Source: Hyphococcus sp.
GTDB lineage: Bacteria > Pseudomonadota > Alphaproteobacteria > Caulobacterales > Parvularculaceae
Reading direction: 5' to 3'
Length of the DNA stretch: 64,000 nt
NCBI GenBank assembly: GCA_021776245.1
Contig: JAJFGF010000033.1
Span: forward strand, 62,001-126,000
How positions within the stretch are numbered: position 1 is the stretch's first letter; every line of letters begins with the position of its first letter. Positions 9,663 through 64,000 of this stretch are shown in pieces. The translations under genes and the position numbers were made by a program. Under the pieces are notes generated by a model. The model had not been told where the DNA came from. It saw only the letters and a list, made by a program, of their open reading frames with translations, and did no database searches.

Positions 9663-9673
9663 GAGGGCGCAAA

Positions 9674-44372: not shown

Positions 44373-46133
44373 TTGCGAGTCCGGCGGTCTGTCATTTTTT
44401 TCAGCATGATATGGAGCGCCCTTCTTGGCCTTGCGCCGGTTATCGCTGCAGCCGCCGAGGATTATCAGGTCTCAATCGAAGGCGCGCCGGCCGATCTCAA
44501 AGAAAAGCTTGAGATCATCTCCAGGCTGAAAAAAAACCAGCGCGATTATCCGACAATTGCAGCGCTGCGCCGCGCCGCGCAGCGGGACGCCGAAGCCTTT
44601 GAAGATGCGCTGAAAGCTGCGGGCTATTATGCAGGCTCGGCAAAGGCCGGTTTAGCGCCTGGAGAAAATGGCGCGCCGACTCAGGTGACATTCAATATTG
44701 AACCGGGCGCAGCGTTTACGGTTTCCGACTATGAAATCCTTTATCAGGACGAACACGAAAACCGGCCAATGACCCTCGCTGACGCCGGCATGACCGGCGA
44801 TGGTTCAGCAGCCGGCGCGGCATTGCGCGACACGCATCGGCAATTTCTCAATTACCTTTGGGAAAACGGATACCCGGCAGCCCAGATTATCTCCCGGCGC
44901 GCAATCGCCAATCTGGAAACAGAGACCGCTCACGCTGTTTTTATTTTCGAAAGCGGGCCAAAGGCCAGATTTGGCGAATCTCGAATTAGCGGCGCCGTCA
45001 AAACCAAACCGTCTTATTTGCGCAAACTGATCAACTGGGAGGAAGGCGAGGATTTCGAGCGCTCGAAACTCGTCGCCTATCGCGACCGGCTTTCAAAGTC
45101 CGGCCTCTTTTCCAAAATCGACGTAGCGCCGGGAGCGCCAGATGACACAGGCGCAGCGCCTGTTCTGATTAACCTGGCTGAGCGCAAGCGGCGCACGATT
45201 GGCGCAGGCGTATCTTTTTCAACATCAGAAGGCCCGGGCGGACGTATATTTTTCGAAAATCGCAATATCTTCGGAAACGCCGAAAATTTTCGCATTGAAT
45301 TGACCGGATCACAATACGAGCAGGCGATCAATTTCGATATTGTAAAACCACTGCCCCGCTTGCCCGGTCAAGCCATCACAAATGTCAAATTCTCAAATGA
45401 GACTACTGACGCATTTGACGCCCGCTCATTTTCGGTGACCGGCGGGCTTTCAAAAAAATGGCTCGACGATAACTTTCAAACCACCGCAGCTATGACGCTG
45501 GAAACTTCGAATGTAAAAACCAATGGAGTCGAAGAGCGCACATATTTCGTGTCAGCGCCGATAACCGTCGGCTGGAATTCCGAAAACGATCTATTAAATC
45601 CCACCAAAGGCGTACGGGCGTCCTGGACCGTAACGCCCTATACAGGAACGGACAGCTTTACCCAAAGCGAGATCATTGCACGAAGCCGCATCAATTTCGG
45701 CGCCCAGGATCGATTTACATTAGCTGCCCGAGGCGCGCTCGGCGCCACATTTGGCGCCGCTCTTTTTGAACTGCCCGCCAACAAACGGTTTTACGCGGGC
45801 GGCGGCGGATCAGTCCGCGGCTTTGGATTTCAAGAAGCCGGGCCGCTGGATGCTGAGAACAAACCCATCGGCGGGCTCTCCCTGATTGAAGGCGCTGTCG
45901 AGGCAAGGGCAAAAATTTCGCAAAACATTCAGCTCGCGGCATTTGCCGACGCGGGTTCCGTATCATCATCCACTTTACCGAATTTTGATGGCGGATTCTT
46001 TGTCGGTTATGGCGGAGGCGTGCGATATTTCACGCCGATCGGGCCAATCCGCGTGGATGTCGCCTTTCCGCTAAACCAGCGCCCGACCGACCGCGCCTAT
46101 CAGATCTTCATTGCCCTGGGGCAGCCCTTTTGA
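44373..46133 (+). CDS. tamA: Translocation and assembly module TamA
   Basis: 586 residues (E. coli TamA 577). A TTG at 44373 gives a proper signal peptide with basic start (MRVRRSVIFF...) and AAAA cleavage region; an ATG at 44406 gives a signal without basic residues and is less likely. Three POTRA-like domains (about 30-260) precede an Omp85 beta-barrel ending in YQIFIALGQPF with the typical C-terminal aromatic. LLNPTKGVRASWTVTPYTG and GGGGSVRGFGFQEAGP are Omp85 hallmarks. The preceding 247-nt divergent gap is its promoter region. It is coupled to tamB by TGATG. Confidence 0.95.
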   Translation: MRVRRSVIFFSMIWSALLGLAPVIAAAAEDYQVSIEGAPADLKEKLEIISRLKKNQRDYPTIAALRRAAQRDAEAFEDALKAAGYYAGSAKAGLAPGENGAPTQVTFNIEPGAAFTVSDYEILYQDEHENRPMTLADAGMTGDGSAAGAALRDTHRQFLNYLWENGYPAAQIISRRAIANLETETAHAVFIFESGPKARFGESRISGAVKTKPSYLRKLINWEEGEDFERSKLVAYRDRLSKSGLFSKIDVAPGAPDDTGAAPVLINLAERKRRTIGAGVSFSTSEGPGGRIFFENRNIFGNAENFRIELTGSQYEQAINFDIVKPLPRLPGQAITNVKFSNETTDAFDARSFSVTGGLSKKWLDDNFQTTAAMTLETSNVKTNGVEERTYFVSAPITVGWNSENDLLNPTKGVRASWTVTPYTGTDSFTQSEIIARSRINFGAQDRFTLAARGALGATFGAALFELPANKRFYAGGGGSVRGFGFQEAGPLDAENKPIGGLSLIEGAVEARAKISQNIQLAAFADAGSVSSSTLPNFDGGFFVGYGGGVRYFTPIGPIRVDVAFPLNQRPTDRAYQIFIALGQPF

Positions 46134-49100
46134 TGCGCCGCTTTTTGATCATAACCGCGGGGATTATCAGCGCCCTCAGCGCTGTCATTACCGTGAGCGC
46201 CGTCGTTCTTTTCAACACGAGCGCCGGCCGCGATCTTATCAAAACACAGATCGAAAGAAGCCTTGGCGCAGAACTCGCGAGCGAGGTCGAAATAATGTCG
46301 ATGACCGGCGCGCCGCCCGGCCGGGTCATTCTCAATGATCTGACGTTCTCCGGGCCCGACGGCCGCTGGCTAAGGGTCAAACGCCTCGAGGTTAATTGGC
46401 GGCCTTTGGCTTATCTCGGAAATAAAATCGACATTGAGGAACTCATCATTGACGGCGCCCATCTTGTTCGCCAGCCGCCGGAGGGCGACAAGACGGATGA
46501 CGACAACCGGCCTTTCCTGGTCCGGCTCAACCAAGATTTGCCATATGTCAGCATCAGCAAAATCACGCTTTCGAATATTTCAACGGAAATTAACGGTGAA
46601 ACCGAGCGCATCAGCGGCGCCGGGGCGATGCAAATCGGCGGTCGCCGGATCAAAACCGATCTGGTTCTCGCCAGTACAAATGACCGGGATGTGGTCAATG
46701 TCGCGGTCGATCTTGACCCGGGCGAAGACAGGCTGATCATTGACGCAACTGTTACCGCACGTGCGGAAGGCGTCATCGCCGCGCTCGCAGGTTTAAAAAG
46801 CGATCTCTTCTTTACGGCCGGAAATGACGGCCCGCTAAGCGCTTTTGATTTAGCGGTTTCGGGAACATTAGGCGGTTACGGGGATCTGAACGCAAACCTC
46901 AGTAACGACCAGGCAACCCCTGACAGCGTTAATATCGATCTTTCTTTTTCGCCCGACGGCGCCTTCGCACGGACACAAGAACTCACCGGGCAATTGGCGG
47001 CAAAAATGCGGCTTCAAAGCCGTGACGAAGGCGGCAGCCTCATGATCGATCAACTCACAATGGCGGCGGGCGACGTTACCGGCGACCTTATCTGGCGAAA
47101 CAGAAATGGCGTTGTCGATCAGCTGAATGCAGAATTATCGGTGGAACTTGCCGCTGACTATCGTCCTGAACTGCAGGACCTGGCGGGCTCGCACTTTTCG
47201 GTGACCGGGCGGCTGGATCGGAAGGGCGAGCGTTACGGTCTCGCGGCAACACTGACCGGTGAGCGCGCCGTCCTTATCGTCGCCAAAGGCGAAACGGATC
47301 TGCGCAAGAAACTGGCGGGCGACCTGGCATTGTCTATCGCGGCATCTGCGGCCGCAAACACGCCAATTGCGAGCGGTCTTGACCTAACGGCCCGGCTGAA
47401 AGCGGATCTTGACGAGGCGCTGGCACTGGAAGCGGTGACGATTAAAACTGCGGACGGCGCCAGCGCCTATGGCTCGGCGCGCTATTCCTTTAGCGATGAG
47501 TCAATCGCCGTTACCGGCGATGCCGCAATAACGCCAGCGGCAATTTCCAGACTCGCGCCGTCATTTAACGCGACCGGCGACATTGCAGCGGAAGTTGATC
47601 TGTCGGGCGTCCTCGACAACCTGACATTGCAAGCATTGATCGAAACGCCTGCCATTCGCACCGGCGAAAATACCGTACAGCCATTGATAATCAATGTCGC
47701 GCTGGCCGGATTGCCAAATCTTCCCACGGGCGAACTTAACGCCCGCGCCGCGGGCAAAGATCAGGACCGCGCATTTACAGCGAAGATCAGGGCATCGCAA
47801 AACGGTCGTATTACGCTGCCATTGATCGACTATCACGGCGCCGGTTTCCGCCTTGCAGGGACCGCCAGCTATGATCAAAACGCCGGAACCGGCGATATTA
47901 ATCTGACTTATGACGGCGCCGAAAACGCCGTGCCATGGCCCGGACTTGCGCTTATGGGCGATCTAAAAATCAACGGCGCAATGTCGCCGACCGAAAACAA
48001 ACTGACGGCAATCTCAGACTCTCTGCGCCTTGGAGAAATTTCAGCCCGTTCGTTTACACTAAATGCCGACGGCCCGCGGGCCGCGTTGCGCGTTGCAATC
48101 AACAGCGATGTTGTCGCAACAAAAAATACGGGAATGATCAACCAATTTCACGCAGCGGCAATTCTTGACATTGCAGGGCCGCCTTCAGTCAGTTTGACAG
48201 CGCTCGAAGGCGTGATTGGCGGCAGTCGCGCCCATTTGACCGCACCAGCCGGGATAATATTTGGCGACGACGTCATCATCGATAATTTGCGGCTCGCGGA
48301 CGGTCGTAGGGGAACCATCGCCGTCGATGGCGCTTTTTCGAAGGCCCGCTGGCAAGCAACGGCCGCCTTGCGAGACGTGAACATCCCGCAGGCGGATGGA
48401 ACCCTTACGCTCAATCTCAATCTCGATACAGCGGCCGCCACTGCCGCCGCTGGTGATTTCACGTTGCGTTCATTGCTGACGACAGGCAGCGAAGCGGCAT
48501 TGGGCGCCGCCTTTATCTGGGATCGCCAATCCATACGCATTACAAACGTCAAGGACGCAGAATTCATCGACATGGAAATTATTTTTCCGGCGCGCCTCAA
48601 AACGTCACCCTCCCTTGCCGTCGATACAAATGGCGCTCTTGCCGGTTACTTTCGCTATAATGGCGATATCGGCGCGATGACGCCTTACCTGCCGCCAACA
48701 CTGCAAACACTGGAAGGGGCGCTAAGCGTCGATTTCGATCTTGGCGGGACAACAACAACGCCGGAATTATTGGGCCAGGCAGAAATCAGCGATGGCAAAT
48801 TCACCGAATTGCAGTCCGGGTTTTCTCTTGTTGGGCTGCATATTGAAGCGACAGCGCGCCATGGCGCCCAAGGCAGCGCGATCCGTTTTGCCGGCGGCGC
48901 GCAAGGCGCCGGACAAACGCAAACGGATACAGTTACCCTAAGCGGTGATCTTTCTCTGGGGGAACAATCATTGTTGAACCTTTCGGTCCTTCTCAATGAA
49001 GCTGAATTATCCGCAGCTCCGGTCCGCAGCGCCCGCCTCAACGGCAATATCGATATTAGCGGATCGCTAAGCGAAATTACCGCAAAAGGCGCGATCATTG

Positions 49101-49939
49101 TCGAAGAACTCGACGCGGAAATCATTGCCCCTGAAAGCACAGGTCTCGTCGATATCGACGTGATCGTTTATGACGGCGCCGCAATGTCAGACGCTGTCAT
49201 GGCGCCGCCCTCGCAAGTATTGAAAAGCTTTGAGATCACAGTCGTCGCCGATGACCGGATTTTTATTCGCGGGCGCGGCCTTGAGAGCGAATGGTCCGCC
49301 AACGCCACCGCAATTAACACGCGGAGCGGACCGGTAGTCATTGGCGAAATGAAACTCCGACGCGGCGCACTGGACTTTTCCGGGCGGCGCTTTGATCTCG
49401 TGCGCGGCGATATTACTTTTGACCGATTTCCCGCCAACAATCCCCGCCTCAATATTCGCGCTGAATACAAAACGCCGAATGGCGTGACAGCTGTCATCAT
49501 TGTTTCCGGACGCGCTGATGAACCAAAAGTTGAGTTGCAGTCAACGCCTGCCATGCCTTCAGAAAATGTGATGGCCCTCGTCCTGTTCGGCAAACCTGCT
49601 GAAGAATTAAGCGCCGTTGAATCGCTTCAGACGGCGCAGGCGCTTGCCGCACTTGGCGGCGTAGGCCCATTCGGCAGAGAAGGCATAACCGGCACATTGC
49701 GTCAGGCCATTGGGCTTGATCTTCTAAATTTCGATATCGATCCGGAAAATGGCGGCGGATCGCTCACAGTCGGCAAATATGTTGCGGAGGGCTTTTTTGT
49801 GTCGGCGACGCAGGACGCCCAGGGCCAGGCCGGATCCGTGCGTGTCGAATATGAGGTGATCGATAACCTGACCGTCGAAACGAAAATTGAACAGGATGGC
49901 GATCAAACAGTGTCCGCCAACTGGAAATTCGACTTCTGA
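46133..49939 (+). CDS. tamB: Translocation and assembly module TamB
   Basis: 1268 residues. An N-terminal anchor helix (2-28), then a very long beta-rich body of AsmA-like repeats, ending in the DUF490/TamB domain (RRGALDFSGRRFDLVRGDIT; ENVMALVLFGKPAEELS; GKYVAEGFFVSATQ). It bridges inner membrane and TamA to move outer-membrane proteins or lipids. The ATG overlaps the tamA stop by one base; the TTG three bases before is a possible but weaker start. Confidence 0.95.
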   Translation: MRRFLIITAGIISALSAVITVSAVVLFNTSAGRDLIKTQIERSLGAELASEVEIMSMTGAPPGRVILNDLTFSGPDGRWLRVKRLEVNWRPLAYLGNKIDIEELIIDGAHLVRQPPEGDKTDDDNRPFLVRLNQDLPYVSISKITLSNISTEINGETERISGAGAMQIGGRRIKTDLVLASTNDRDVVNVAVDLDPGEDRLIIDATVTARAEGVIAALAGLKSDLFFTAGNDGPLSAFDLAVSGTLGGYGDLNANLSNDQATPDSVNIDLSFSPDGAFARTQELTGQLAAKMRLQSRDEGGSLMIDQLTMAAGDVTGDLIWRNRNGVVDQLNAELSVELAADYRPELQDLAGSHFSVTGRLDRKGERYGLAATLTGERAVLIVAKGETDLRKKLAGDLALSIAASAAANTPIASGLDLTARLKADLDEALALEAVTIKTADGASAYGSARYSFSDESIAVTGDAAITPAAISRLAPSFNATGDIAAEVDLSGVLDNLTLQALIETPAIRTGENTVQPLIINVALAGLPNLPTGELNARAAGKDQDRAFTAKIRASQNGRITLPLIDYHGAGFRLAGTASYDQNAGTGDINLTYDGAENAVPWPGLALMGDLKINGAMSPTENKLTAISDSLRLGEISARSFTLNADGPRAALRVAINSDVVATKNTGMINQFHAAAILDIAGPPSVSLTALEGVIGGSRAHLTAPAGIIFGDDVIIDNLRLADGRRGTIAVDGAFSKARWQATAALRDVNIPQADGTLTLNLNLDTAAATAAAGDFTLRSLLTTGSEAALGAAFIWDRQSIRITNVKDAEFIDMEIIFPARLKTSPSLAVDTNGALAGYFRYNGDIGAMTPYLPPTLQTLEGALSVDFDLGGTTTTPELLGQAEISDGKFTELQSGFSLVGLHIEATARHGAQGSAIRFAGGAQGAGQTQTDTVTLSGDLSLGEQSLLNLSVLLNEAELSAAPVRSARLNGNIDISGSLSEITAKGAIIVEELDAEIIAPESTGLVDIDVIVYDGAAMSDAVMAPPSQVLKSFEITVVADDRIFIRGRGLESEWSANATAINTRSGPVVIGEMKLRRGALDFSGRRFDLVRGDITFDRFPANNPRLNIRAEYKTPNGVTAVIIVSGRADEPKVELQSTPAMPSENVMALVLFGKPAEELSAVESLQTAQALAALGGVGPFGREGITGTLRQAIGLDLLNFDIDPENGGGSLTVGKYVAEGFFVSATQDAQGQAGSVRVEYEVIDNLTVETKIEQDGDQTVSANWKFDF

Positions 49940-50035: not shown

Positions 50036-50428
50036 ATGCGCAGCGAAATTGATCATGAGGTCAAATCGCGCATGCCCGAAATGCCGAACACGCCGCAAGC
50101 CGCCTCTTCCGCCGATGACGCAATCGCCGCATTGCGCCCGAGTTTTCTGGCATCCTTGAAAACGCAGCTGGAAGAATTGAAAGCCCATCGCGAAAACATC
50201 GCAGCAGGCGAGATTGACGACAATTCGCGGCAGGCGATGCGCTTTACCGTACACGCCATGCGCGGCACCGCCGCGTCTTATTTTTTTCCAGCAATTCCGG
50301 AGACCGCAGGACCGCTCGAACGTGCAATCGTCGCCGGCGATGCAATGACTGATGACAGCGTTTTGGCGATGATGGATAATCTGATTAAGATGTGCGCCGA
50401 CGCCCTTGATCAAGAAAGCGCCGCTTAG
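50036..50428 (+). CDS. Orphan HPt phosphotransfer protein
   Basis: 130 residues. A four-helix HPt-like domain with phospho-acceptor His73 in FTVHAMRGTAASYFF, which fits the H-x3-G-x-A HPt signature. No kinase or receiver domain is attached. GAAAGG precedes the ATG. It is 96 nt downstream of tamB. It could relay phosphate from a hybrid kinase such as the one encoded at 18986-20818, which lacks an HPt, but distance makes this only a suggestion. Confidence 0.8.
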   Translation: MRSEIDHEVKSRMPEMPNTPQAASSADDAIAALRPSFLASLKTQLEELKAHRENIAAGEIDDNSRQAMRFTVHAMRGTAASYFFPAIPETAGPLERAIVAGDAMTDDSVLAMMDNLIKMCADALDQESAA

Positions 50429-50499: not shown

Positions 50500-52491
50500 C
50501 TATACTAACTCCGCATCAGTCATCACTTCGACGAGCACAGGTCCTTTGTGGGCAATCGCCGCGCGAAGCGTTTCCACCAGATCCGCTTTGTCGGTCACGC
50601 GAATGCCCTTGCCGCCGCATGAGTCTGCAAAGTCTGCAAAACCCGGGTTACGGAGAGAGGTCTGCCATACAGGCCACTCGCCGGCTCGCTGTTCCTTGGT
50701 GATCTTGCCGAGTTGGCCGTTGTGCATCAGCACATGGGTGATATCCATTTCATATTTTACAGCAGTCGTAAATTCCATCGCATACTGACCAAACCCGCCA
50801 TCGCCGGACACCGAGACAACTTTGCGGCCGCGATATTCTTCAAAGTCCTGTGTCGCAGCCCACGCGCCCATCGCCGCAGGAAATCCAAATCCAATCGAGC
50901 CAAGATAGCCGGACATCAATACGCGTTGGCCGCAGGGTTCGAAATAGCGCCCGAAAGAATAAGTGTTATTGCCAACGTCAACCGGCATGATGGCGTCGGG
51001 CGGCACGACTTTCGTCATCGCCGCGAACAATGATGCAGCGTTAATGCCATTGCCCCGGTCATCCTCCAGCCGGCGTTGTTTTTCGCGCCGCCAGATCGCC
51101 CATCGTTCCGCGATCTCTTTCAATTGATCAACGCCGTCGCTGCGGGCTGGCTTTGCATTTTTCATCAATCGCAAGGTTTCGCCGATTTCGCCCCATACGG
51201 GCAGCGCTACGGCGTGACTTTTACCGAGATGCATGCGATCGAAATCTATCTGCACAATCGGTTTGGACGGCTCTATCCCGGTATGATGAGAAAACGAGGC
51301 GCCGATAGCGACAATCAGATCGCATTCATTCATAAACCAGGAAGCAATTGGCGTGCCCGAACGCCCCAACACGCCGCCAGCATTGGGATGGGTGTCGGGG
51401 ATTTGTCCTTTCGCCTTAAAGGTCGTGAGCACCGGGCATTTTAAACCTTCGGCAAGCGCTGTTACGTCAGCCATCGAATCCCGTGCGCCATAGCCAACGA
51501 TAATCACCGGTCGCTTTGCACCAGATATTTTTTTGTTTGCAGCTTCAATCACGCCACCCGGCGGCGCCATCCTGGCGCTCACAATCCGCCCGTCCGGCTT
51601 GCCCGCCTCAGCATCCGGCGCCGGCAGTGTTTGAGCGTCGTCCGGAAAAATCATCACCGAAACGTCGCGTTCGACCAGCGCCGTTTTCATCGCAAGCGAC
51701 GTCACTTCTCCATAATCCGATGCGTGGAGAACAAGCTGGTTAAATTTTCCAACCGGTGCAAAAGCGCTGTGAAGATCGATATCCTGAAAAGCAAAAGGTG
51801 AAAAAACCTGCACCTGAACCTGTCCGGCGCAGGCTATGACGGGCGCACGGTCAACTTTCGCATCCCAGAGGCCTGTCATCAAATTTGTCGCGCCTGGCCC
51901 CGCAATAGAAAGACACGCCGCCGGCTTGCCGGTCAGCTTTGCATAACCCGAACAGGCAAAGGATGCAGCGCCCTCATGGCGGATGCCAATATAGGAAATG
52001 TTGCCGGCCTCTTCCTGTACGCGAAACGCATCGGCAAGACCTAGATTGGAATGGCCAACCATGCCGAACACGCGCTTCAGGCCCCAATTGACCATGGTTT
52101 CGGCGACAACATCCGTTGACGTACGAATATGCAACGGCTGCGGCGGCAGGCCCACATAGACGCCATCGCTGCGCGTTTCGACGGGAAACATTTCCTGGCC
52201 CGAATCTTCGTGCCCGCCTGGCGGCTTGCCGGTGAGGGGATCAAAATCCCACCCATGCCACGGGCAGCGCAGCCAGCAGGCGCCGTCCTTGCCTTTTTCG
52301 ATCGAGCCTTCGCCGAGCGGGCCGCCCTGGTGAGGACAGCGATTGTCCATTGCCGCGTATTGACCATCGAAATGAACAAGCGCCAGCGTTTTCCGGCCCG
52401 CCGTCACGGTCGTAACACGGCCTTCGGGCGGTTGTTCGGCCGCGGCGACGCGATGCCATTCAACAGCGTCTTTCGAAACTGGTTCAGTCAT
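50500..52491 (-). CDS. Rieske-ThDP enzyme fusion (acetolactate synthase-like)
   Basis: 663 residues. Residues 10-115 are a Rieske ferredoxin domain with Cys52, His54, Cys76, His79 (CPHQGG, CPWHGWDFD). Residues about 122-660 are a three-domain ThDP enzyme of the pyruvate oxidase/acetolactate synthase family: catalytic Glu173 (IRHEGAASFACSGYAKLTG), cofactor motif from Gly563 (SGDGGFGQYA) to Asn591. The fusion of a Rieske cluster to a ThDP decarboxylase-like enzyme is unusual; electrons from 2-oxoacid cleavage could leave through the cluster. It is divergent from the redox operon at 52741-56656. The substrate is unknown. GAGGGAC precedes the ATG. Confidence 0.88.
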   Translation of the reverse strand: MTEPVSKDAVEWHRVAAAEQPPEGRVTTVTAGRKTLALVHFDGQYAAMDNRCPHQGGPLGEGSIEKGKDGACWLRCPWHGWDFDPLTGKPPGGHEDSGQEMFPVETRSDGVYVGLPPQPLHIRTSTDVVAETMVNWGLKRVFGMVGHSNLGLADAFRVQEEAGNISYIGIRHEGAASFACSGYAKLTGKPAACLSIAGPGATNLMTGLWDAKVDRAPVIACAGQVQVQVFSPFAFQDIDLHSAFAPVGKFNQLVLHASDYGEVTSLAMKTALVERDVSVMIFPDDAQTLPAPDAEAGKPDGRIVSARMAPPGGVIEAANKKISGAKRPVIIVGYGARDSMADVTALAEGLKCPVLTTFKAKGQIPDTHPNAGGVLGRSGTPIASWFMNECDLIVAIGASFSHHTGIEPSKPIVQIDFDRMHLGKSHAVALPVWGEIGETLRLMKNAKPARSDGVDQLKEIAERWAIWRREKQRRLEDDRGNGINAASLFAAMTKVVPPDAIMPVDVGNNTYSFGRYFEPCGQRVLMSGYLGSIGFGFPAAMGAWAATQDFEEYRGRKVVSVSGDGGFGQYAMEFTTAVKYEMDITHVLMHNGQLGKITKEQRAGEWPVWQTSLRNPGFADFADSCGGKGIRVTDKADLVETLRAAIAHKGPVLVEVMTDAELV

Positions 52492-52570
52492 GGTCTATTG
52501 TCCCTCTTCAAATCGGCCCTCGCCGCACCACCGCAATAGGCGTTCTCACCTTGCCGCCGAACGACCGCCA

Positions 52571-52664
52571 AAAAGTGATTTCATCACCCGGCCCATCACG
52601 CATATGTTCAGATTCGTGAATGTCAGTTTAGAGCGGGCGGGCTAATGTCAGGCAAATCACTTTT
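52571..52664. promoter_or_regulatory. Mirrored 11-bp element in divergent promoter gap
   Basis: AAAAGTGATTT at 52571-52581 and AAATCACTTTT at 52654-52664 are exact reverse complements. Each lies, in the same orientation relative to its gene, about 77-80 nt before a start codon (52491 on minus, 52741 on plus). This suits one activator or repressor acting on both units. TACTAT at 52685-52690 is a candidate -10 for the plus strand. Confidence 0.5.
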
Positions 52665-52740
52665 CTCGCGCATGTTTTAGGCTGTACTATTAACCAGGCG
52701 CGGAAGATCGGGTGCCGGCTGAAGAACAAGGGGCTGTAAA

Positions 52741-54366
52741 TTGGGGAGAAACTGGGTTGCTGTCGCCAAATTGGCGGCGCTTGAGGACCGTAAACCGGCC
52801 TATGCGCTGGTCGCCGGCGTTGATCTCGTTGTTGTGCGTTTCGACAAGGATGTGTCGGTTATGTATGGGCGGTGCCTGCATCGCGGCGCGCTATTGGCCG
52901 ACGGCCATGTTGACGGACAAAATCTGATTTGCGGGGTCCATAATTGGGACTATCGCCTCGACACTGGCGTCAGCGAATATAACAACAGTGAAGCGCTTGA
53001 AAAATTTTCATCTCAAGTCGAAGCCGGAAAAGTTTTCGTTGATAAAGACGAAGTGAAGGCGTGGGCGCACGATCATCCGCAACCGTTCGATCGCAACGCC
53101 TATCTAGGCCTCTATGCAGACACGCACCCGGCGCCGGAGGAACCTTTTGTCGGCTTGATCCAGAGCTATGCCCGCGACGGTCTTTCCAAAACCGGCCATC
53201 ATGGCGTTGTAGACGCCATGGGCGTACCGCGCGATCAGTTGCCCACATGGGACGACATTCAATTTGTGACGGCGCAACTTTATCGTGTTCCGCTGCTTGA
53301 TGATGATCCTGTCGAAACCGGCGTGACGATCGGCCCTGACGCGCAGAAACCGTTAAAGCTCGATATTCCACTTTTCGTTTCCGACATGAGCTTTGGCGCC
53401 CTTTCTCGTGAAGCGAAAATAGCGCTCGCCAAAGGCGCGGAAATGGCAGGCACCGGCATTTGCGCCGGCGAAGGCGGTTCCCTCGATGAAGAACGCCACG
53501 CAAACAGCCGGTATTTTTACGAACTCGCGTCGGCCCGGTTTGGTTTTTCCTGGGACAAAGTCAACGAATCTGCAGCATTTCATTTTAAAGGCGGCCAAGG
53601 CGCCAAAACCGGCACTGGCGGCCATTTGCCCGGCCGGAAAGTCCGGGCGGAAATTGCCAAAGTGCGCGGTCTCAATCTTGGCGAGGATGCAATTTCACCG
53701 TCCCGGTTCCCGGACTGGACTGAAGTTTCTCAATATCGGGATTTCGCCAATGAAGTGCGTGAGCGCACGGGCGGCATACCGATTGGTTTCAAATTGTCAG
53801 CCCAACATATTGAAAAAGACATCGACGCGGCGCTGGAGCTCGGTGTTGATTACATCATTCTCGACGGACGCGGCGGCGGCACAGGCGCCGCGCCGCTGAT
53901 TTTCCGAGACAATATTTCCGTGCCGACCATTCCCGCTTTGGCGCGGGCGCGCCGGCATCTTGATATGAGCGACGCCAAGAATGTTTCGCTGATTGCGACC
54001 GGCGGTTTGCGCAAGCCCGCCGATTTCGCGAAAGCTCTTGCGCTGGGCGCTGATGCGATAGCGCTTTCTAACGCGCCAATGCAAGCTATTGGTTGTCTGG
54101 GCATGCGCGCCTGCCACACAAATAATTGCCCTGTTGGCATTGCAACCCAGAAGGAAAATCTTCGTTCACGCCTGAAGATCGAAGCATCAGCGAAACAACT
54201 CGCAAATTTCTTTGAGGCCTCAACGGAGTTGATGAAGATCCTGGCGCGCGCCTGCGGTCACAATCGACTGTCTGACTTCACAATCGATGATCTCACGACT
54301 TTCAAAACCGATATGGCGTCGCTGACTGGCGTGGCTTACGGCGGCACAGGAGCACAGCATGGCTGA
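52741..54366 (+). CDS. Rieske-glutamate synthase-like FMN protein fusion
   Basis: 541 residues from a TTG that is preceded by AAGGGG at seven bases; no ATG or GTG lies between it and the in-frame stop upstream. Residues 1-95 are a Rieske domain: Cys45, His47, Cys64, His67 (CLHRG, CGVHNWDY). Residues about 150-530 are the FMN-binding barrel of glutamate synthase: FVSDMSFGALSREAKIALA, GGQGAKTGTGGHLPG, DGRGGGTGAAP, and Cys452-x5-Cys458-x4-Cys463 (CLGMRACHTNNCPVG) for the 3Fe-4S cluster. There is no amidotransferase domain, so ammonia or another electron-using reaction is likely. First gene of a five-gene overlapping operon. Confidence 0.88.
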   Translation: MGRNWVAVAKLAALEDRKPAYALVAGVDLVVVRFDKDVSVMYGRCLHRGALLADGHVDGQNLICGVHNWDYRLDTGVSEYNNSEALEKFSSQVEAGKVFVDKDEVKAWAHDHPQPFDRNAYLGLYADTHPAPEEPFVGLIQSYARDGLSKTGHHGVVDAMGVPRDQLPTWDDIQFVTAQLYRVPLLDDDPVETGVTIGPDAQKPLKLDIPLFVSDMSFGALSREAKIALAKGAEMAGTGICAGEGGSLDEERHANSRYFYELASARFGFSWDKVNESAAFHFKGGQGAKTGTGGHLPGRKVRAEIAKVRGLNLGEDAISPSRFPDWTEVSQYRDFANEVRERTGGIPIGFKLSAQHIEKDIDAALELGVDYIILDGRGGGTGAAPLIFRDNISVPTIPALARARRHLDMSDAKNVSLIATGGLRKPADFAKALALGADAIALSNAPMQAIGCLGMRACHTNNCPVGIATQKENLRSRLKIEASAKQLANFFEASTELMKILARACGHNRLSDFTIDDLTTFKTDMASLTGVAYGGTGAQHG

Positions 54367-54619
54367 TGTGACGGCAGTCGCCGAAGCGTTTGTGATTTGC
54401 CTCGCTGCCTATTTCAGCATTGGCGTCCTTGTCGCTGTTTTGTTTCTCACCTTTGGCGTGTCGCGTATTGACGCTGCCGCAAAACGAGCGAGTCCATTTT
54501 TCCGGCCAGTGATTTTTCTTGGCTGCGTCGCGCTGTGGCCGTTTGTCATTTTGCGCGTCGCCTCTTTGAAGAAAATAAACCTGTCGACTGAGGACCTGCC
54601 GACTGAGGAAACGAAATGA
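54359..54619 (+). CDS. Small two-helix membrane protein in redox operon
   Basis: 86 residues, two membrane helices (about 7-34 and 47-64), a short basic loop (RIDAAAKRAS) and a charged tail. The start overlaps the preceding stop by eight bases and its stop overlaps the next start by four (ATGA). Not recognised as a named family. It may anchor the cytoplasmic Rieske-FMN enzyme to the membrane or form part of the electron pathway. Confidence 0.7.
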   Translation: MADVTAVAEAFVICLAAYFSIGVLVAVLFLTFGVSRIDAAAKRASPFFRPVIFLGCVALWPFVILRVASLKKINLSTEDLPTEETK

Positions 54620-54789
54620 AACGCCCGCACCGCAGAATTCATTTCCTTTTTTGGATTGTAATTGCGCCAATCACTGCGCTCGTCGGCTATTTTTCCTGGC
54701 AGATGCGCCCGGCGACGCCTTTTACTGAATTGCCGCCCGGTATCGAGACAATTTCTGATGCCTCAACCGATACATCGGAATCCCGCTGA
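54616..54789 (+). CDS. Very small single-helix membrane protein in redox operon
   Basis: 57 residues starting MKRPHRRIHF, one helix (about 8-27, HFLFWIVIAPITALVGYF) with a basic N-terminal flank, so the C-terminus faces the periplasm, followed by a polar Pro/Thr/Glu/Ser-rich tail. The ATG overlaps the previous stop (ATGA) and its stop overlaps the next ATG (TGATG). Too small for many gene finders; kept because of this perfect coupling. Confidence 0.65.
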   Translation: MKRPHRRIHFLFWIVIAPITALVGYFSWQMRPATPFTELPPGIETISDASTDTSESR

Positions 54790-55853
54790 TGGGCCATCAA
54801 TACAAAGCCATACAATGGAACGGCAACAAGATTGTCTACGATCTTTACGTGCTCGCCTCGACAGGCATGTTCATAACGATATTTATGATCACTGGGTTGG
54901 CAACGCAGCCAGGCGGACACCCAGCCGATCCGGTAATCTTGTTCATCCGCGCGCTCGGCGTTACGGCGTTCGCATTATTGACCGTTATCCTGACCATTGG
55001 TCCGCTTGCCCGCCTTAGCCCGCGCTTTTTGCCGATGCTTTATAATCGGCGCCATCTCGGCGTCACGATGTTCATTGTCGCGTCGGCGCATTTTGGTCTG
55101 GCGCTTTTTTGGTACCATGCCGGCGGTCCGCTCAATCCGCTTGTCTCCTTGTTTGTCAGCAATCCGCAATATGATTCTATTCCCGGCTTTCCATTCGAAT
55201 CATTGGGATTTGTCGCCTTCCTCATTATCTTTGTCATGGCGGCGACAAGCCATGATTTCTGGCTTAATAATTTGTCAGCGCCGGTCTGGAAAGCGCTGCA
55301 TATGCTGGTTTATCCGGCCTATGCGCTGTTGGTGATGCACATTGTGCTCGGCGCCCTGATGACCGAAAAATCTATGCTCTATCCGATCATGACGGGCGGC
55401 GCGTTTCTTTTTGTGTCGGGATTGCATCTATATGCCGGATTTGGCGAGTGGCGCGCCGACAATGGAATGAAATCACTCAAAGCCAAAGGTTGGATCGATG
55501 TCTGCGCGCCGCTGGACATTCCCGATATGCGCGCCGTCATTGCGCCCCTGCCAAAGGGCGATCGCGTCGCCGTGTTTCGCTATGGCGGGAAAATTTCGGC
55601 TGTGACCAATGCCTGCCGCCATCAAAACGGGCCGCTCGGAGAAGGTCGCGTCATTGACGGTTGCATCACCTGCCCGTGGCATGGCTGGCAGTATCGACCG
55701 AGTGACGGCATTTCGCCGCCGCCCTTTACTGAAAAAATCGCAACCTACAATGTCAAAATCGAGAGCGGCCGGGTTTTTGTCGATCCGAAACCCAATCCAC
55801 CGGGAACGCGGACAAATCCTGCACTTATTGACATGGAAGGAGCGTCATTGTGA
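54789..55853 (+). CDS. Ferric reductase-like membrane protein with C-terminal Rieske domain
   Basis: 354 residues. Residues 15-230 hold six membrane helices of the ferric reductase-like/MsrQ type, with His89 and His101 in one region and His171 and His184 in another, suited to two b-haems. Residues about 235-340 are a Rieske domain: Cys276, His278, Cys295, His298 (CRHQNGPLG, CPWHGWQY). The fusion would let electrons move between membrane haems and a 2Fe-2S centre. It overlaps both neighbours by one and four bases. Partner of the Rieske-FMN enzyme is the simplest reading. Confidence 0.85.
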   Translation: MGHQYKAIQWNGNKIVYDLYVLASTGMFITIFMITGLATQPGGHPADPVILFIRALGVTAFALLTVILTIGPLARLSPRFLPMLYNRRHLGVTMFIVASAHFGLALFWYHAGGPLNPLVSLFVSNPQYDSIPGFPFESLGFVAFLIIFVMAATSHDFWLNNLSAPVWKALHMLVYPAYALLVMHIVLGALMTEKSMLYPIMTGGAFLFVSGLHLYAGFGEWRADNGMKSLKAKGWIDVCAPLDIPDMRAVIAPLPKGDRVAVFRYGGKISAVTNACRHQNGPLGEGRVIDGCITCPWHGWQYRPSDGISPPPFTEKIATYNVKIESGRVFVDPKPNPPGTRTNPALIDMEGASL

Positions 55854-56656
55854 CGAACGCTTCAAAGGGAGTGATTGATCCGCAAAAGAAAGACCCTAAC
55901 GAAATGTTTGTCGGTTGGGCTTCGGCGCCCGCGGTCGATCGGCGTTTCCTGCTCGGCGCGTTGCCGGCTGGATTGGCGGCGAGTGCGGGCGCGAGCTGGC
56001 TGATTGCAAACGAGCTTGACGATCCGGGCGCCGGCGCCTGGCTCACCAATGCAACACATCAAGTGACAGGCGTTCTAACGAACCACCCCTATCCGATGAT
56101 CCGGCTTGCCGATGCGCGTGCGCCTTTCGGCATGCGCACCATCCTTGTGGTCGCGCAGGGAAAATGCACATCCGGCCTCAGACTTGGCGACGTAGCCGGG
56201 AAAGCCGTTTCGGCGTCCGGCGTGCTGATCCAGCGCGAAGGCCGGCAAATGCTTGAAGTGCCGCTGTTTCTTGGCGACTGGCTCAAGCTTGCCGATGAAG
56301 AAGCTGCAGAGCCGGATGCGCTGACCAATCCGCAAACGGAACCGCTCGGAAAGGCGACACTTTCTGGAACGATCATGGATTCAAAATGCTTTTTTGGGGT
56401 CATGAAACCAAGCCTTGGCAAAACCCACAAAGCCTGCGCCAGCCTGTGCATCCGAGGCGGCATTCCACCCAGTTTCTGGGCGCGAACGCGTGACGGACGG
56501 GAATCGGTATTGTTAATGACAGACGCGCAAGGCGGTCCGATGTCAATGGATATTCTGCCCCTCGTCGCCGATCCCGTGACCGCGCAGGGTGAGATCGTCC
56601 GTGTCGGCGACATATTAGAGTTCCGCGCCGATCCCAACGACTACCGCCGCATCTAA
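55850..56656 (+). CDS. Membrane-anchored Cys-containing protein of redox operon
   Basis: 268 residues from a GTG preceded by GGAAGGAG; the GTG overlaps the previous stop (GTGA). After a 30-residue cytoplasmic leader comes DRRFLLGALPAGLAASAGASW, a twin-Arg anchor like those of bc1 Rieske subunits, so it may be a Tat-exported, uncleaved protein. The periplasmic part has a conserved-looking Cys block (MDSKCFFGVMK, then KACASLCIRGGIPP). I do not recognise the family. The Cys set could bind a metal or haem, or act in thiol redox. Confidence 0.7.
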   Translation: MTNASKGVIDPQKKDPNEMFVGWASAPAVDRRFLLGALPAGLAASAGASWLIANELDDPGAGAWLTNATHQVTGVLTNHPYPMIRLADARAPFGMRTILVVAQGKCTSGLRLGDVAGKAVSASGVLIQREGRQMLEVPLFLGDWLKLADEEAAEPDALTNPQTEPLGKATLSGTIMDSKCFFGVMKPSLGKTHKACASLCIRGGIPPSFWARTRDGRESVLLMTDAQGGPMSMDILPLVADPVTAQGEIVRVGDILEFRADPNDYRRI

Positions 56657-56899: not shown

Positions 56900-58147
56900 C
56901 TAGGTCGCTGTGCTTTCAATCTTTGTGCTGACAGCGTCCGCTTTTGCCGCAGCGCTTTTGCCATATAGACGCGACAATGGCGAAGCTGTCGCGCCGTGCA
57001 AGATAACGCTCAGGAACACGGTCACATAAACCACGGCTTCGATTTCTGACAGCCGTCCCATTTCATCATGTTCCACAGCAATCAGCAAAAACAAGATGGA
57101 TGCCAGGCCGCGCGGACCAAACCACCCTATAAATGCTTGAGTGGGCAGTTTTAACCGAAGACCAATCAGCGATAACGCCGTCGGCGCCATACGAATGAAT
57201 GTGAGACTTAGCATGGCATAAAGCACACAAAACCCGGTGAAATGCTCCAACGCTGAAGGCAACAGCACCGCGCCGAAAAAGAAAAAGATGATCAGACTGA
57301 AGAGCTGGCCTTCTTCTTCGACAAAACCGGTCAGCGAGCCCGCGCGCCGTTTGCAAAACGTGCCAAACACCATACCGCCGACAAAGGCCGCGATAAAGCC
57401 ATTGCCGCCGATAATATCGGCGAGCAAAAGTGTGAGAATGGCAACGCCGATGCAAGTGAGGTTGCGAAATTCGTGACTAATCCAGCCTTTTTCGTCCGCG
57501 TGATGAACAAGCTTGCCGAGGACGCCGCCCGTAACAACACCAACAATCGCGCCGACGCTGATCTGCGTTGCGGCAAAACCAAGCCAATAGCCGAGCCCAT
57601 GCGCTTCTTCCGACATAGCGCTGAAAGCAAGCGCGGCGAACAGGAGAACCATTGGCAGCGCAATGCCGTCGTTCAATCCGGACTCAACCAGAACTCCCTG
57701 GCGAATGCGCTCCGGCACATCCTTGCTGGTAACCACCGCATAACCAAGCGCAGCATCCGTTGGCGCAAGGATCGCAGCAATGAGCGCGCATTCCTGCCAC
57801 GACAAATTCGGAAACAGACCGATCGCAACCGCTGTGCCGAAAATGATTGTCAATGGCAATGACACCAGCAGTAATCGTTGAGGGATGCGGCTTTCTTTCA
57901 AAAGATTTCGGCTGTTGGTGGCGGCTGCGTCAGCGAACAAGATAAATCCGAGCGTCAACTCACCGAACCCTTCCAGCACCTCATTTTCGATGTCGATCTC
58001 AAAAAGCCCCAACCCGGCCTGACCGGCCGCGAGGCCCGCCAGCATGAAAATCATCGGCGCGGAGATAACCGACTTTGCGAACCGTCCGGAAAACGCTCCG
58101 TAAAAAACAATGCAAAGCGCAATAACAATAAGCGGTTCAGTGATCAT
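56900..58147 (-). CDS. Cation:proton antiporter (CPA1/NhaP-like)
   Basis: 415 residues from ATG 58145-58147; a TTG four codons earlier is an alternative. About twelve membrane helices. APTDAALGYAVV and ESGLNDGIALPMVLL carry the paired acidic residues of CPA-family ion sites, and GWFGPRGLASILFLL is the conserved late motif. It exchanges Na+ or K+ for H+. It is transcribed alone on minus, convergent with the redox operon. Confidence 0.9.
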   Translation of the reverse strand: MITEPLIVIALCIVFYGAFSGRFAKSVISAPMIFMLAGLAAGQAGLGLFEIDIENEVLEGFGELTLGFILFADAAATNSRNLLKESRIPQRLLLVSLPLTIIFGTAVAIGLFPNLSWQECALIAAILAPTDAALGYAVVTSKDVPERIRQGVLVESGLNDGIALPMVLLFAALAFSAMSEEAHGLGYWLGFAATQISVGAIVGVVTGGVLGKLVHHADEKGWISHEFRNLTCIGVAILTLLLADIIGGNGFIAAFVGGMVFGTFCKRRAGSLTGFVEEEGQLFSLIIFFFFGAVLLPSALEHFTGFCVLYAMLSLTFIRMAPTALSLIGLRLKLPTQAFIGWFGPRGLASILFLLIAVEHDEMGRLSEIEAVVYVTVFLSVILHGATASPLSRLYGKSAAAKADAVSTKIESTAT

Positions 58148-58254
58148 GTCTAAGCTCAATAACCAGCAATAAGATATCGCTTCGGACTAGTTCGCCTTTA
58201 TGAAGCGAACCGCCGTAGTTTGACTAATCACATTTTTGGAGAATTGGGCGCGCC

Positions 58255-61922: not shown

Positions 61923-62757
61923 ATGGTCCCCCTATGCAACGACTTCAGACCCACACTGCAACTTCAGCGCCAGAAAACACCCGCAAGATGTGCTCCAAAT
62001 CTCGACATCAACCTGACGGCGCGTGTGGGCTTACGCCACGGGCCGGGATTAAATGTTATTGGTTTGCCGATTGAAGCGCCCCCATGCAGCCGACGATGCA
62101 CCCGTTAACCGGTGCGATATAATGTATTACCTGTTGAAAAGGTTAATTGCCAATAGTTAATTACTGCAGTGCACACTTTGCACGCGATACGCGAAACCCG
62201 TAGCGTGGAAAAAGCACTGTCAACGTTGAAATCTACAAAAACCGGCCTGGGACAAGGCCATCGCGCCTCGACCAATTCCCGCATTAAGTGTTATAATCGA
62301 TAGAGGCCACCGGCATAAAGTCGGCGGCAAACGCGCCCAAGACCCTGCCGAAATAAAAATCGGCCAAAAGAAGCGTCCCCGTTTGCGACATTCAGCGGCA
62401 AATTTCGTGGGCGCTACATATTGGATGGACGGCTCCGGGTGCCCATCCAAAGGGCGCGATAGGCATAATCCGGGCGCTAAAAGCATATCGTTTGCGGCTC
62501 TTGCCAATGGTTCAAGATGTTGAATCTTTTCGCCACAGAAACAACAATGGTTCGCCTGGAGCGCGTGAGCCGCTTGAATCTGCAATGAACCCAACGATCG
62601 TCCAATATCGTTAATTCCGATATCGGTAACAATGTTGCATTATCGGTCAGTCTGCATATTAGATTTTTGCGGCTGCGCAGAGAAATTGCGGGCCAGACCG
62701 ATTAACGCGCGCGGGCGCATGGCTGCCAGGACCGACTGGTTATTCCGGGGAAACGCT
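61923..62757. other. Long divergent intergenic region
   Basis: 835 nt between the fusion gene (minus) and the PhyH-Rieske gene (plus). 62110-62180 is AT-rich with repeated GTTAATT and a GTGCA...TGCAC dyad. ATATCG-N7-CGATAT lies at 62605-62623. A minus-strand frame at 62220-62594 (124 codons) lacks family likeness and was not called. It probably contains promoters for both sides. Confidence 0.45.
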
Positions 62758-64000
62758 ATGGCGACCGAAATTCAATTTGGCGACGACAGGAGTCCGGACG
62801 CCGGTCTTGTTGACCGGGCGCTCAATGGCGAGGTCTTTGTCATCCGCGGCGCCTATAACCGTTTTCAATTGTTCAAGACCCTGATTACGGCCAGCCTCGA
62901 CGGCATTGGAAAAAGCGCCGGCGAGAACGTTGCGCGCCGCGCCGAATCGGAAGGTTTCGAGCGCATTCATGAATGGGTCGCGCCAGCGGACATCCCCGCC
63001 ATGACAGACGCCGTCTATGATTCCGTCAAACCATTAGCCTCAGGTTTTTTGACGGCATTCGTGCAACAGGCTTTTCCCGAAGCGAAAACACTCTACTATG
63101 AAGAAACGCCCAATGTCAGATTTCACATCCCCTATGATCTGGCGCGCGCGCAAAAGGATTCCTACAAGTCATTTTCAAAAGACCATGGCGAAGGGAAAAT
63201 CACCGCGCATGGACCGCATCGCGATTCCTGGCTCGACTGCCCGTCAAATGGGATTAATCTGTGGTTTGCCGTGGGTCCGGTTCGTAAGGGCAACGGTCTT
63301 ACTATTTACGAGACGGATTACCAGGGCGATTTCGTTTACAAAAATAGCGGCGATATCTCGGACGGAGAAAAACTTCACCGGCCAACAACCTTTGACCTGG
63401 AGCCTGGCGATTGTGTGCTGTTTCACACCGACCAGATTCACGGCTCGGAGCTGAATCGAATCAATGAAACAAGGTTTGTCATTTCGTTTCGAATGTCATT
63501 TGGCAAACCGGTTTTTCCGAACCGCCATTACCACAAATATGTCAACGCAGATATGGTGGGCACGCCGTTGGGGTTCATGGCGAGCCTTCCCGCGGCAATG
63601 CAGGCAAGTTTTATTCGGACCCTGCCCTGGCGGTTAAGCGAAAAGCTGTCGCCGCGCCCGAAAAAAGACATAGTCGCCGCGCCGCCGGAGACAATCGGTA
63701 TTGAGCGGGACGGAAAAATTTACATTCCCATTGAGGCGGCGCCTGTCGGCGCGGTGCGCGGGGTCAGCGCCGCATATTGCGTCGCGCGGATTTCAGATAA
63801 AGAGGCCGTCGCCCTATCGCGCCGTTGTCCCCATAGCGGCGGCGATTTCGCCAATGGCTGGATTCATGACGGTGCGGTTGTCTGTCCGTGGCATAATTTG
63901 CCGTTCGACACGAAAACCGGCCGCTCGCCATGCAAGACCCTGGCGCAGGTCCGGCGCGTAAGGTGCGATATCGTCGGCAGCGAGATCGTTATTGACCCGA
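62758..64000 (+). CDS. PhyH-like dioxygenase with C-terminal Rieske domain (cut at right edge)
   Basis: At least 414 residues, open to the edge. ATG 62758 follows CCGGGG; an in-frame ATG at 62719 is an alternative. Residues about 80-250 are a phytanoyl-CoA dioxygenase-like domain with His154-x-Asp156 (HGPHRDSWLD), distal His228 (TDQIHGSELN) and Arg239 (ETRFVISFR). Residues about 325-414 are a Rieske domain with Cys357, His359, Cys376, His379 (CPHSGG, CPWHNLPFD). A cluster able to feed electrons to a 2OG oxygenase is not normally needed, so the pairing is odd. It stands alone after a long intergenic gap. Confidence 0.85.
   Translation, partial: MATEIQFGDDRSPDAGLVDRALNGEVFVIRGAYNRFQLFKTLITASLDGIGKSAGENVARRAESEGFERIHEWVAPADIPAMTDAVYDSVKPLASGFLTAFVQQAFPEAKTLYYEETPNVRFHIPYDLARAQKDSYKSFSKDHGEGKITAHGPHRDSWLDCPSNGINLWFAVGPVRKGNGLTIYETDYQGDFVYKNSGDISDGEKLHRPTTFDLEPGDCVLFHTDQIHGSELNRINETRFVISFRMSFGKPVFPNRHYHKYVNADMVGTPLGFMASLPAAMQASFIRTLPWRLSEKLSPRPKKDIVAAPPETIGIERDGKIYIPIEAAPVGAVRGVSAAYCVARISDKEAVALSRRCPHSGGDFANGWIHDGAVVCPWHNLPFDTKTGRSPCKTLAQVRRVRCDIVGSEIVIDP

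Follow-up and report, generated by a model that had tools for sequence, protein, structure and literature searches.

Rieske domains are familiar from complex III and from the ferredoxins of dioxygenases, and the supply of a transmembrane haem domain by a cytosolic redox domain is known from the NOX/FRE flavocytochromes. A model with both a Rieske and a ferric-reductase-like domain is tabulated as M4 of the FRD superfamily (PMC3591440), a tandem CDGSH module fused to the flavin mononucleotide (FMN) domain of glutamate synthase is described as the type 5 CISD protein (PMC3174974), and CDGSH is listed in bacteria with Fer4_19, Glu_synthase and Rieske_2 domains (PMC5859297). Here we describe a locus in a 64,000-nucleotide stretch (hereafter, the window) of the 4.14 Mb genome of Hyphococcus sp. 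(contig JAJFGF010000033.1, positions 62,001 to 126,000), in which Rieske domains are fused to a thiamine diphosphate (ThDP) enzyme, to a glutamate-synthase-type (GltS) protein and to a ferric-reductase-like (FRD) haem membrane protein. It is a real, recurrent and apparently uncharacterised multi-component redox cluster, composed of known domain families in a combination that we found nowhere described, and its proposed mechanism is plausible but unproven.

The FRD-Rieske and CDGSH-GltS fusions have already been published, whereas the set of three is apparently new. A first-pass annotation of this DNA, made from the letters alone, knew of no pathway with such a set, and neither a characterised operon of this kind nor a description of the set occurs among the matches listed in the open-access literature, an absence that is no proof of novelty. 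The accessible parts of PMC8097209, PMC12746152 and PMC5676040 hold nothing on this gene set, and those of PMC3591440 give no function, operon or partner for model M4, which also lists FMN, in contrast to the window protein, where Pfam finds none.

Three Rieske fusions in one locus

The first-pass annotation had reported three Rieske fusions with intact ligands, two of them encoded among five plus-strand genes that overlap at each junction and the third by a divergent gene. Pfam, with each Rieske domain scoring well above its cut-off, and the ligand residues bear out all three fusions, the overlaps amount to 8, 4, 1 and 4 bases in gene order, and the divergent starts of the ThDP and GltS genes are 249 bases apart (Table 1). 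Open reading frame (ORF) calls, which took the wrong strand in some high-GC loci (e.g. L044, L068, L070 and L177), were accepted only where BLAST, Pfam or frame inspection agreed.

In the ThDP fusion, Pfam recognises a Rieske domain (8.1e-17) together with TPP_enzyme_N, TPP_enzyme_M and TPP_enzyme_C (2.7e-28, 4.8e-34 and 1.3e-32, respectively). The Rieske ligands C52/H54/C76/H79 are kept in 58 of 58 aligned rows, in which the activator glutamate E173, K596 and E600 are also invariant; D564 and G565 of the GDG motif occur in all 58 and G563 in 54. These rows were chosen beforehand as near full-length matches of more than 50% identity and show intactness, not the frequency of the Rieske domain. 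With the pyruvate oxidases PoxB, SpxB and YdaP, the protein shares the full-length ThDP fold, the activator glutamate and a second Glu, that of segment 'FIKDE' in the Lactiplantibacillus plantarum enzyme (LpPOX). It differs from them by its N-terminal Rieske domain, by scores far below the curated cut-offs and by the lysine K596, found in 58/58 rows, which the phmmer alignment matches with a Phe in both LpPOX (presumably Phe479) and the Escherichia coli enzyme (EcPOX). At a guess, this lysine could bind an acidic substrate tail. The nearest NCBIfam model, PRK08611 pyruvate oxidase, scores 366.9 bits, far below its cut-off of 742, and the best PDB match by sequence is acetolactate synthase I. 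The enzyme probably belongs to the pyruvate-oxidase branch, and would act there as the oxidase or dehydrogenase of a 2-oxoacid.

The GltS fusion combines a Rieske domain (Pfam, 5.2e-13) with Glu_synthase (3.5e-90) and putatively starts at a TTG codon, the first in-frame start past a stop. Its nearest named relative found, at 91% identity, comes from a Marinicaulis metagenome-assembled genome, the window's own record having possibly been excluded. The [3Fe-4S] cysteines C452/C458/C463 are present in 91/91 rows and the Rieske ligands C45/H47/C64/H67 in 90/91, the sole exception (L128) being an ORF prediction that is too short; these rows were preselected as near full-length with more than 60% identity, CDGSH-type GltS being excluded, and they too speak for intactness and not for Rieske frequency. 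The FMN barrel and the [3Fe-4S] cysteines are shared with glutamate synthase. Pfam detects in the 541 residues nothing beyond Rieske, Glu_synthase and weak relatives of the FMN barrel and no glutaminase (GATase) domain, a glutaminase encoded at another locus as its own subunit not having been sought; glutamate synthase proper was rejected since this protein is devoid of the glutaminase domain. The enzyme would probably perform ammonia- or amine-linked 2-oxoglutarate/glutamate chemistry. Type 5 CISD proteins resemble it in their histidine-ligated N-terminal [2Fe-2S] module and in a GltS domain that is 64-66% identical in four loci drawn from the window's class. The window protein differs in carrying Rieske and no CDGSH and in being linked to ThDP and FRD, while tblastn found no ThDP-, FRD- or NhaP-like gene in the four type 5 loci fetched.

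The third fusion joins Ferric_reduct (Pfam, 5.5e-14) to a C-terminal Rieske domain (2.4e-14). Its Rieske ligands C276/H278/C295/H298 and the residues R88, H101, H171 and H184 are invariant in 32/32 rows, hand-picked from the window, 49 matches of one search and two Rhizobium records, and likewise throughout a second alignment of 32 rows. R88 lies 13 residues before H101, with H89 directly after it, a spacing from which it may be read as the Arg that replaces the first canonical haem His. The structural model has six long helices (pLDDT 82, pTM 0.73), hydropathy alone giving five, and loop charges over the 32 rows place the N-terminus and the 68-89 loop in the cytosol. Because of the six helices and the positive-inside charges, the Rieske domain is predicted to face the cytosol. 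The Rieske half has as its best structural match a carbazole-dioxygenase ferredoxin (E 1.7e-7, TMt 0.86), and the best Rieske-type NCBIfam matches of GltS and FRD are also dioxygenase ferredoxins; the best reading is that the Rieske domains of the three fusions are of the dioxygenase-ferredoxin type, a fold that the model supports for the FRD domain only. A Rieske oxygenase was rejected, as Pfam finds no oxygenase catalytic (mononuclear-iron) domain in the three fusions.

Two described systems come close to this protein. MsrQ/YedZ, the partner of MsrP, shares the six-helix predicted b-haem domain and the Arg that stands where the first canonical His would be, whereas the window protein adds a cytosolic Rieske domain and belongs to an operon with a 268-aa protein (P268) instead of an MsrP-like molybdenum cofactor (Moco) protein. 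The NCBIfam MsrQ match (1e-10) reaches 41.5 bits against an equivalog cut-off of 130, Pfam detects no Moco domain in any operon product, and MsrQ in the strict sense was rejected on the score and the lack of MsrP. In NOX/FRE flavocytochromes a cytosolic redox domain is likewise joined to the transmembrane haem domain that it feeds (PMC3591440), but the flavin adenine dinucleotide (FAD)/NAD(P)H domains are here replaced by Rieske, the only such domain found by Pfam; therefore, the electron donor must be another protein.

The remaining operon products, namely the 86-aa and 57-aa proteins and P268, have no Pfam or NCBIfam match at E <= 0.01. The 86-aa protein is a conserved partner of the FRD gene, and the small protein upstream is longer in some relatives (ca. 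121-142 aa). P268 is modelled (pLDDT 85) with one N-terminal transmembrane helix and two beta domains, and 20 columns are invariant in 30 rows, including a D-x-K-C...H...C...C set in the second domain (30/30). The protein is probably periplasmic and its second domain may provide a periplasmic acceptor or a metal site. Attempts to place it in a family were unsuccessful: the best PDB profile match has an E value of 0.15, and Foldseek returned mostly OB-fold matches, none at E <= 0.001 and with TM-scores of ca. 0.2 by query length.

Table 1. Genes of the Rieske-fusion locus and neighbouring features in the window
Feature	Position	Strand	Description
Rieske-ThDP fusion	50500..52491	-	663 aa; N-terminal Rieske domain ~11-90, pyruvate-oxidase/acetolactate-synthase-like ThDP enzyme ~125-661
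Rieske-GltS fusion	52741..54366	+	541 aa; N-terminal Rieske, then FMN/[3Fe-4S] glutamate-synthase barrel
86-aa small membrane protein	54359..54619	+	two predicted transmembrane segments (hydropathy)
57-aa small membrane protein	54616..54789	+	one predicted transmembrane segment (hydropathy), K/R-rich N-terminus
FRD-Rieske fusion	54789..55853	+	354 aa; YedZ/MsrQ-type b-haem membrane domain, then dioxygenase-ferredoxin-type Rieske
P268	55850..56656	+	268 aa; N-terminal transmembrane anchor, then two OB-like beta domains
Na+/H+ exchanger-family gene (NhaP)	56900..58159	-	outside the interval first reported; Pfam Na_H_Exchanger 1.8e-41
TamA-like and TamB genes	44373..49939	+	upstream of ThDP
Hpt-domain gene	50036..50428	+	upstream of ThDP
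Fourth Rieske fusion	62632..64000	+	PhyH-like (phytanoyl-CoA dioxygenase) domain, C-terminal Rieske; frame runs beyond the window

Co-inheritance of the three fusions

We tentatively prefer, at a little under an even chance, to regard the locus as a modular electron-transfer system in which a dioxygenase-type Rieske domain is the common docking plug of the ThDP, GltS and FRD proteins. The two enzymes would swap single electrons via their N-terminal Rieske centres, mutually and with the cytosolic Rieske domain of FRD, the b-haem of which would carry electrons across the membrane to P268 or another acceptor at the periplasmic face. The domains, their ligands, the recurrence, the linkage and the domain swaps are observed; cofactor loading, contact between Rieske domains, direction, substrates and the role of P268 are what we infer. 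An electron transfer via 2Fe-2S centres to or from b-haem, which the first-pass annotation had proposed, fits the domain swaps (see below) and the predicted topology.

Among 289 genomes of the window's class (class draw), Rieske-GltS occurs in 8, Rieske-ThDP in 13 and FRD in 15, and all three are found in seven genomes that belong to five families; the eighth genome with Rieske-GltS (G074) is 67% complete. By the hypergeometric test, uncorrected for kinship, chance would give such overlaps with probabilities of 4e-10 for GltS-ThDP and 1.6e-9 for GltS-FRD. A second draw of 349 genomes from the phylum, partly overlapping the first, was searched with limits of E <= 1e-150 for ThDP-Rieske and E <= 1e-10 for FRD. 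A GltS relative (E <= 1e-140) was detected in 37 of them, including five class members with Rieske-GltS, and ThDP-Rieske and FRD are present in 5/5 of these. Six other Rieske-GltS genomes lie outside the class (see below), one relative (G430) has an unreadable N-terminus, and the remaining 25 matches begin at residue 122-133, with CDGSH in 4/4 of those inspected. The link between GltS, ThDP and FRD is tight within the class and absent in the outside-class group. The distance matrices for GltS and ThDP are correlated (r = 0.83, 51 taxa), but the species tree confounds this relation, which was not used as evidence.

Joint presence bears on the explanation that the three fusions arose independently and are unrelated neighbours, co-located for no other reason than that the cluster is retained and passed around by marine alphaproteobacteria. 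Gene order is indeed variable and the genes are far apart in several lineages, as this explanation would have it, but the joint presence holds where they are unlinked (G009, G143, G123 and G227) and GltS recurs with ThDP in a second domain of life, so that we consider it very improbable.

Gene neighbourhoods

Linkage was examined in the best 80 of 581 GltS loci, which are the closest relatives and are biased towards clusters of the window's kind. In these, ThDP occurs in 49 loci, an NhaP-like antiporter in 38, and FRD and P268 in 31 each, P268 being present in all FRD-bearing loci; the corresponding numbers for the 55 loci that span 19 kb or more are 40, 26, 27 and 27. The 86-aa protein was found in 32/80 loci and the 57-aa protein in 11/80 (tblastn). 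ThDP lies no more than 400 bases from GltS in 41 loci, on the same strand in 31, and an NhaP relative is within 400 bases of GltS in 31 loci, always on the same strand. The order NhaP-GltS-ThDP-86aa-FRD-P268 on one strand occurs in 10/80 loci, all from Roseibium, Labrenzia or Stappia, and in L043 and L212 GltS, the 86-aa gene, FRD, P268 and ThDP are also on a single strand.

The antiporter gene had escaped the first-pass annotation, as had the fourth Rieske fusion at the end of the window (Table 1) and another FRD module of this genome. The latter (L065, G000:C45:8000-27900, at 7875-10130) comprises an 86-aa-like gene, FRD-Rieske (75%) and P268 (62%), has neither GltS nor ThDP within the 20 kb examined and stands beside a response regulator and a sensor kinase. 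FRD modules unlinked to GltS also follow a radical-SAM-like gene near glycolate-oxidase-like genes in L066 and L069 (labels in these three loci come from reading the sequence). The TamA-like, TamB and Hpt genes next to ThDP in the window recur, among the 80 relatives, in L078 only. A 282-aa protein adjoins GltS or ThDP in 13/98 loci (e.g. L039 8047-8895, with a weak DUF5996 match, and L130 8452-9357) and follows ThDP in L175. Recurrent regulator-like ORFs in the 80 loci are, as labelled by reading, sigma-factor-like (10 loci) and LacI-like (9 loci), for instance L125 2301-2966 and L121 6417-7517.

The neighbourhoods outside the class suggest another role, namely a defence against oxidants or electrophiles in which Rieske and CDGSH centres would sense or buffer oxidants while the enzymes balance the 2-oxoacid, ammonia and thiol pools. 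Rieske-GltS there abuts MsrA (L207), with pirin, nitroreductase, old yellow enzyme (OYE), glutathione S-transferase (GST), cytochrome b561 and YceI-like genes nearby (L207 8727-14978 and L208 2472-5875; labels from reading); pirin and DsrE genes are within ca. 6 kb of Rieske-ThDP on a haloarchaeal plasmid, and FRD itself is MsrQ-like. Relatives of these genes are, however, sparse and confined to few lineages in 98 Rieske-GltS loci, with MsrA and pirin in 3 each, nitroreductase, b561 and YceI in 2 each, OYE and VOC in 5 each, and 8, 8, 1 and 1 for four GST queries, all counts including the query genes. We regard this role as distinctly unlikely. A general enrichment of stress genes around GltS is unsupported by a comparison of the 98 target loci (1.78 Mb) with 25 controls (0.44 Mb, matches in 3), which is biased as the queries came from the target loci.

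Exchange of iron-sulphur modules and occurrence beyond the class

The N-terminal module of GltS varies: in 21 pattern-scored loci it is Rieske in 13, tandem CDGSH in 7, both in none and neither in one (L194), and in three more loci, L189-L191, a Rieske motif was seen on reading the N-termini. The ThDP enzyme varies as well, with a short Rieske-ThDP form and long forms that have two CDGSH motifs ahead of the Rieske domain. By Pfam the latter read CDGSH-CDGSH-Rieske-ThDP (L176) or CDGSH-Fer4_19-CDGSH-Rieske-ThDP (L178 and L180); the two motifs also occur in L177 and L179, giving several Fe-S modules per chain. In the class draw the long form accounts for 5/13 ThDP genomes, and neither Rieske-GltS nor FRD occurs in any of the five, whereas 7/8 genomes with the short form, assigned from a motif search, from Pfam or from the length of the ORF, have both (one-sided Fisher test, 0.0047). 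The simplest reading of these architectures is that histidine-ligated [2Fe-2S] modules would be exchangeable electron plugs, the ThDP enzyme being served either by partner proteins or by a built-in wire. In L185 (505-2685), an FRD-Rieske gene is directly followed by a fusion of Rieske to FMN_red, a flavodoxin-like domain.

Relatives of both enzymes were found on haloarchaeal plasmids, Rieske-GltS at 60-61% identity (3 records) and Rieske-ThDP at 58-60% (4 records), with the Rieske ligands present in 7/7. The two genes are within 6 kb of each other in Salinirubellus and Halorarius, the latter having a sodium:proton antiporter and a potassium channel between them, and ca. 17 kb apart on one plasmid in Halorubrum; a Haloferax plasmid has ThDP only. 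On a Mycobacteroides plasmid, a cation:proton antiporter and a flavodoxin-like gene lie near Rieske-ThDP (51%). The case for the antiporter as a universal partner is weakened, since that of Halorarius matches at 35% over 107 aa (E 5e-7) and that of Mycobacteroides has no BLAST match. On Rhizobium plasmids, the FRD module is accompanied by a divergent ThDP gene without a Rieske domain, and the pairing in L073 is similar; a CoA-transferase gene lies close to this combination in L164 and L165, where it is annotated, and by reading in L073.

The haloarchaeal pairs speak for an alternative in which Rieske-ThDP and Rieske-GltS would form a soluble cytosolic couple, with 2-oxoacid oxidation driving the reductive amination of 2-oxoglutarate or the reverse, and FRD would be a separate membrane component that merely happens to be nearby in many cases. 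Among the genes sought, 9/80 loci have GltS and ThDP only and 11 have GltS, ThDP and NhaP, FRD possibly lying elsewhere in the genome, and FRD can stand alone, as does the second copy in the window's genome. On the other hand, FRD accompanies Rieske-GltS and Rieske-ThDP in 7/7 genomes of the class draw and 5/5 of the phylum draw, and it bears a Rieske domain of the same kind that is predicted to be cytosolic. We consider such a soluble couple unlikely, though it is the most probable of the alternatives.

Several observations weigh against the modular system with a common Rieske plug that we prefer. None of ThDP, FRD and the antiporter is found within the flanks in 15/80 GltS loci (7/55 of the long ones), and 8 of the 15 class genomes having FRD are without Rieske-GltS. 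Outside the class, six genomes that are 69-99% complete (G307, G362, G396, G414, G514 and G544, the Rieske part of the last being judged from alignment alone) have Rieske-GltS and neither ThDP-Rieske nor FRD at the E limits used. In the four genomes with unlinked genes cited above, the genes are present but dispersed. FRD was not found (E <= 1e-20) on the haloarchaeal plasmids with GltS and ThDP, their chromosomes not having been searched, and the Foldseek top 50 of FRD matched the Rieske half alone, with no membrane match. The first-pass annotation had proposed co-occurrence across genomes as a check on its interpretation: co-inheritance of the ThDP, GltS and FRD fusions stands within the class and is lacking in the six genomes outside it, and the interpretation is partly upheld, the genes not being one indivisible unit.

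Direction of electron flow

In the preferred system, electrons would most likely run from the substrate of the ThDP enzyme through Rieske centres either to GltS, for reductive amination, or to the haem of FRD, as an overflow to the membrane. The potential of pyruvate oxidation is far below that of dioxygenase-type Rieske centres (ca. -0.15 V), and that of 2-oxoglutarate/glutamate is ca. -0.12 V. These potentials allow a flow from ThDP to Rieske, and they also allow the soluble couple. The proximity of the latter two values is also compatible with a reverse flow, in which the FRD haem would take electrons from the quinol pool and reduce the cytosolic Rieske domain, feeding a GltS-type reductive amination without NADPH or ferredoxin. 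Ubiquinol (ca. +0.1 V) would nevertheless be a poor donor without proton-motive force, and this scheme leaves unexplained why the same Rieske plug is found on a ThDP enzyme of the 2-oxoacid-oxidising type. In favour of reverse flow, MsrP/MsrQ are described as users of respiratory-chain electrons (PMC5449189). On balance, reverse flow appears improbable and less likely than the direction with ThDP as donor.

Implications

These data raise the possibility, which we advance with more reserve than the modular system itself, of an unrecognised redox bus. In it, the ThDP enzyme would represent a new class of 2-oxoacid:Rieske oxidoreductase and GltS a Rieske-linked amino-acid/2-oxoacid flavoenzyme, both sharing with a transmembrane b-haem protein a histidine-ligated [2Fe-2S] plug that is interchangeably Rieske or CDGSH. 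As part of the same proposal, the GltS/ThDP enzyme pair would have moved between bacteria and haloarchaea. The metabolism of carbon and nitrogen would then connect directly with the membrane, no NAD(P)H, quinone or ordinary ferredoxin acting as carrier in the cytosol. The whole cluster is present in named isolates, among them Roseibium denhamense JCM 10543 (L124), which makes the system testable in cultured marine bacteria. If confirmed, it would represent a new cytosol-to-membrane electron route in which Rieske domains connect a transmembrane haem with enzymes of central carbon and nitrogen metabolism. A first testable role would follow for the uncharacterised FRD-Rieske and type 5 CDGSH-GltS proteins, and the search for substrates could be defined for a ThDP family whose active-site region has an invariant lysine.

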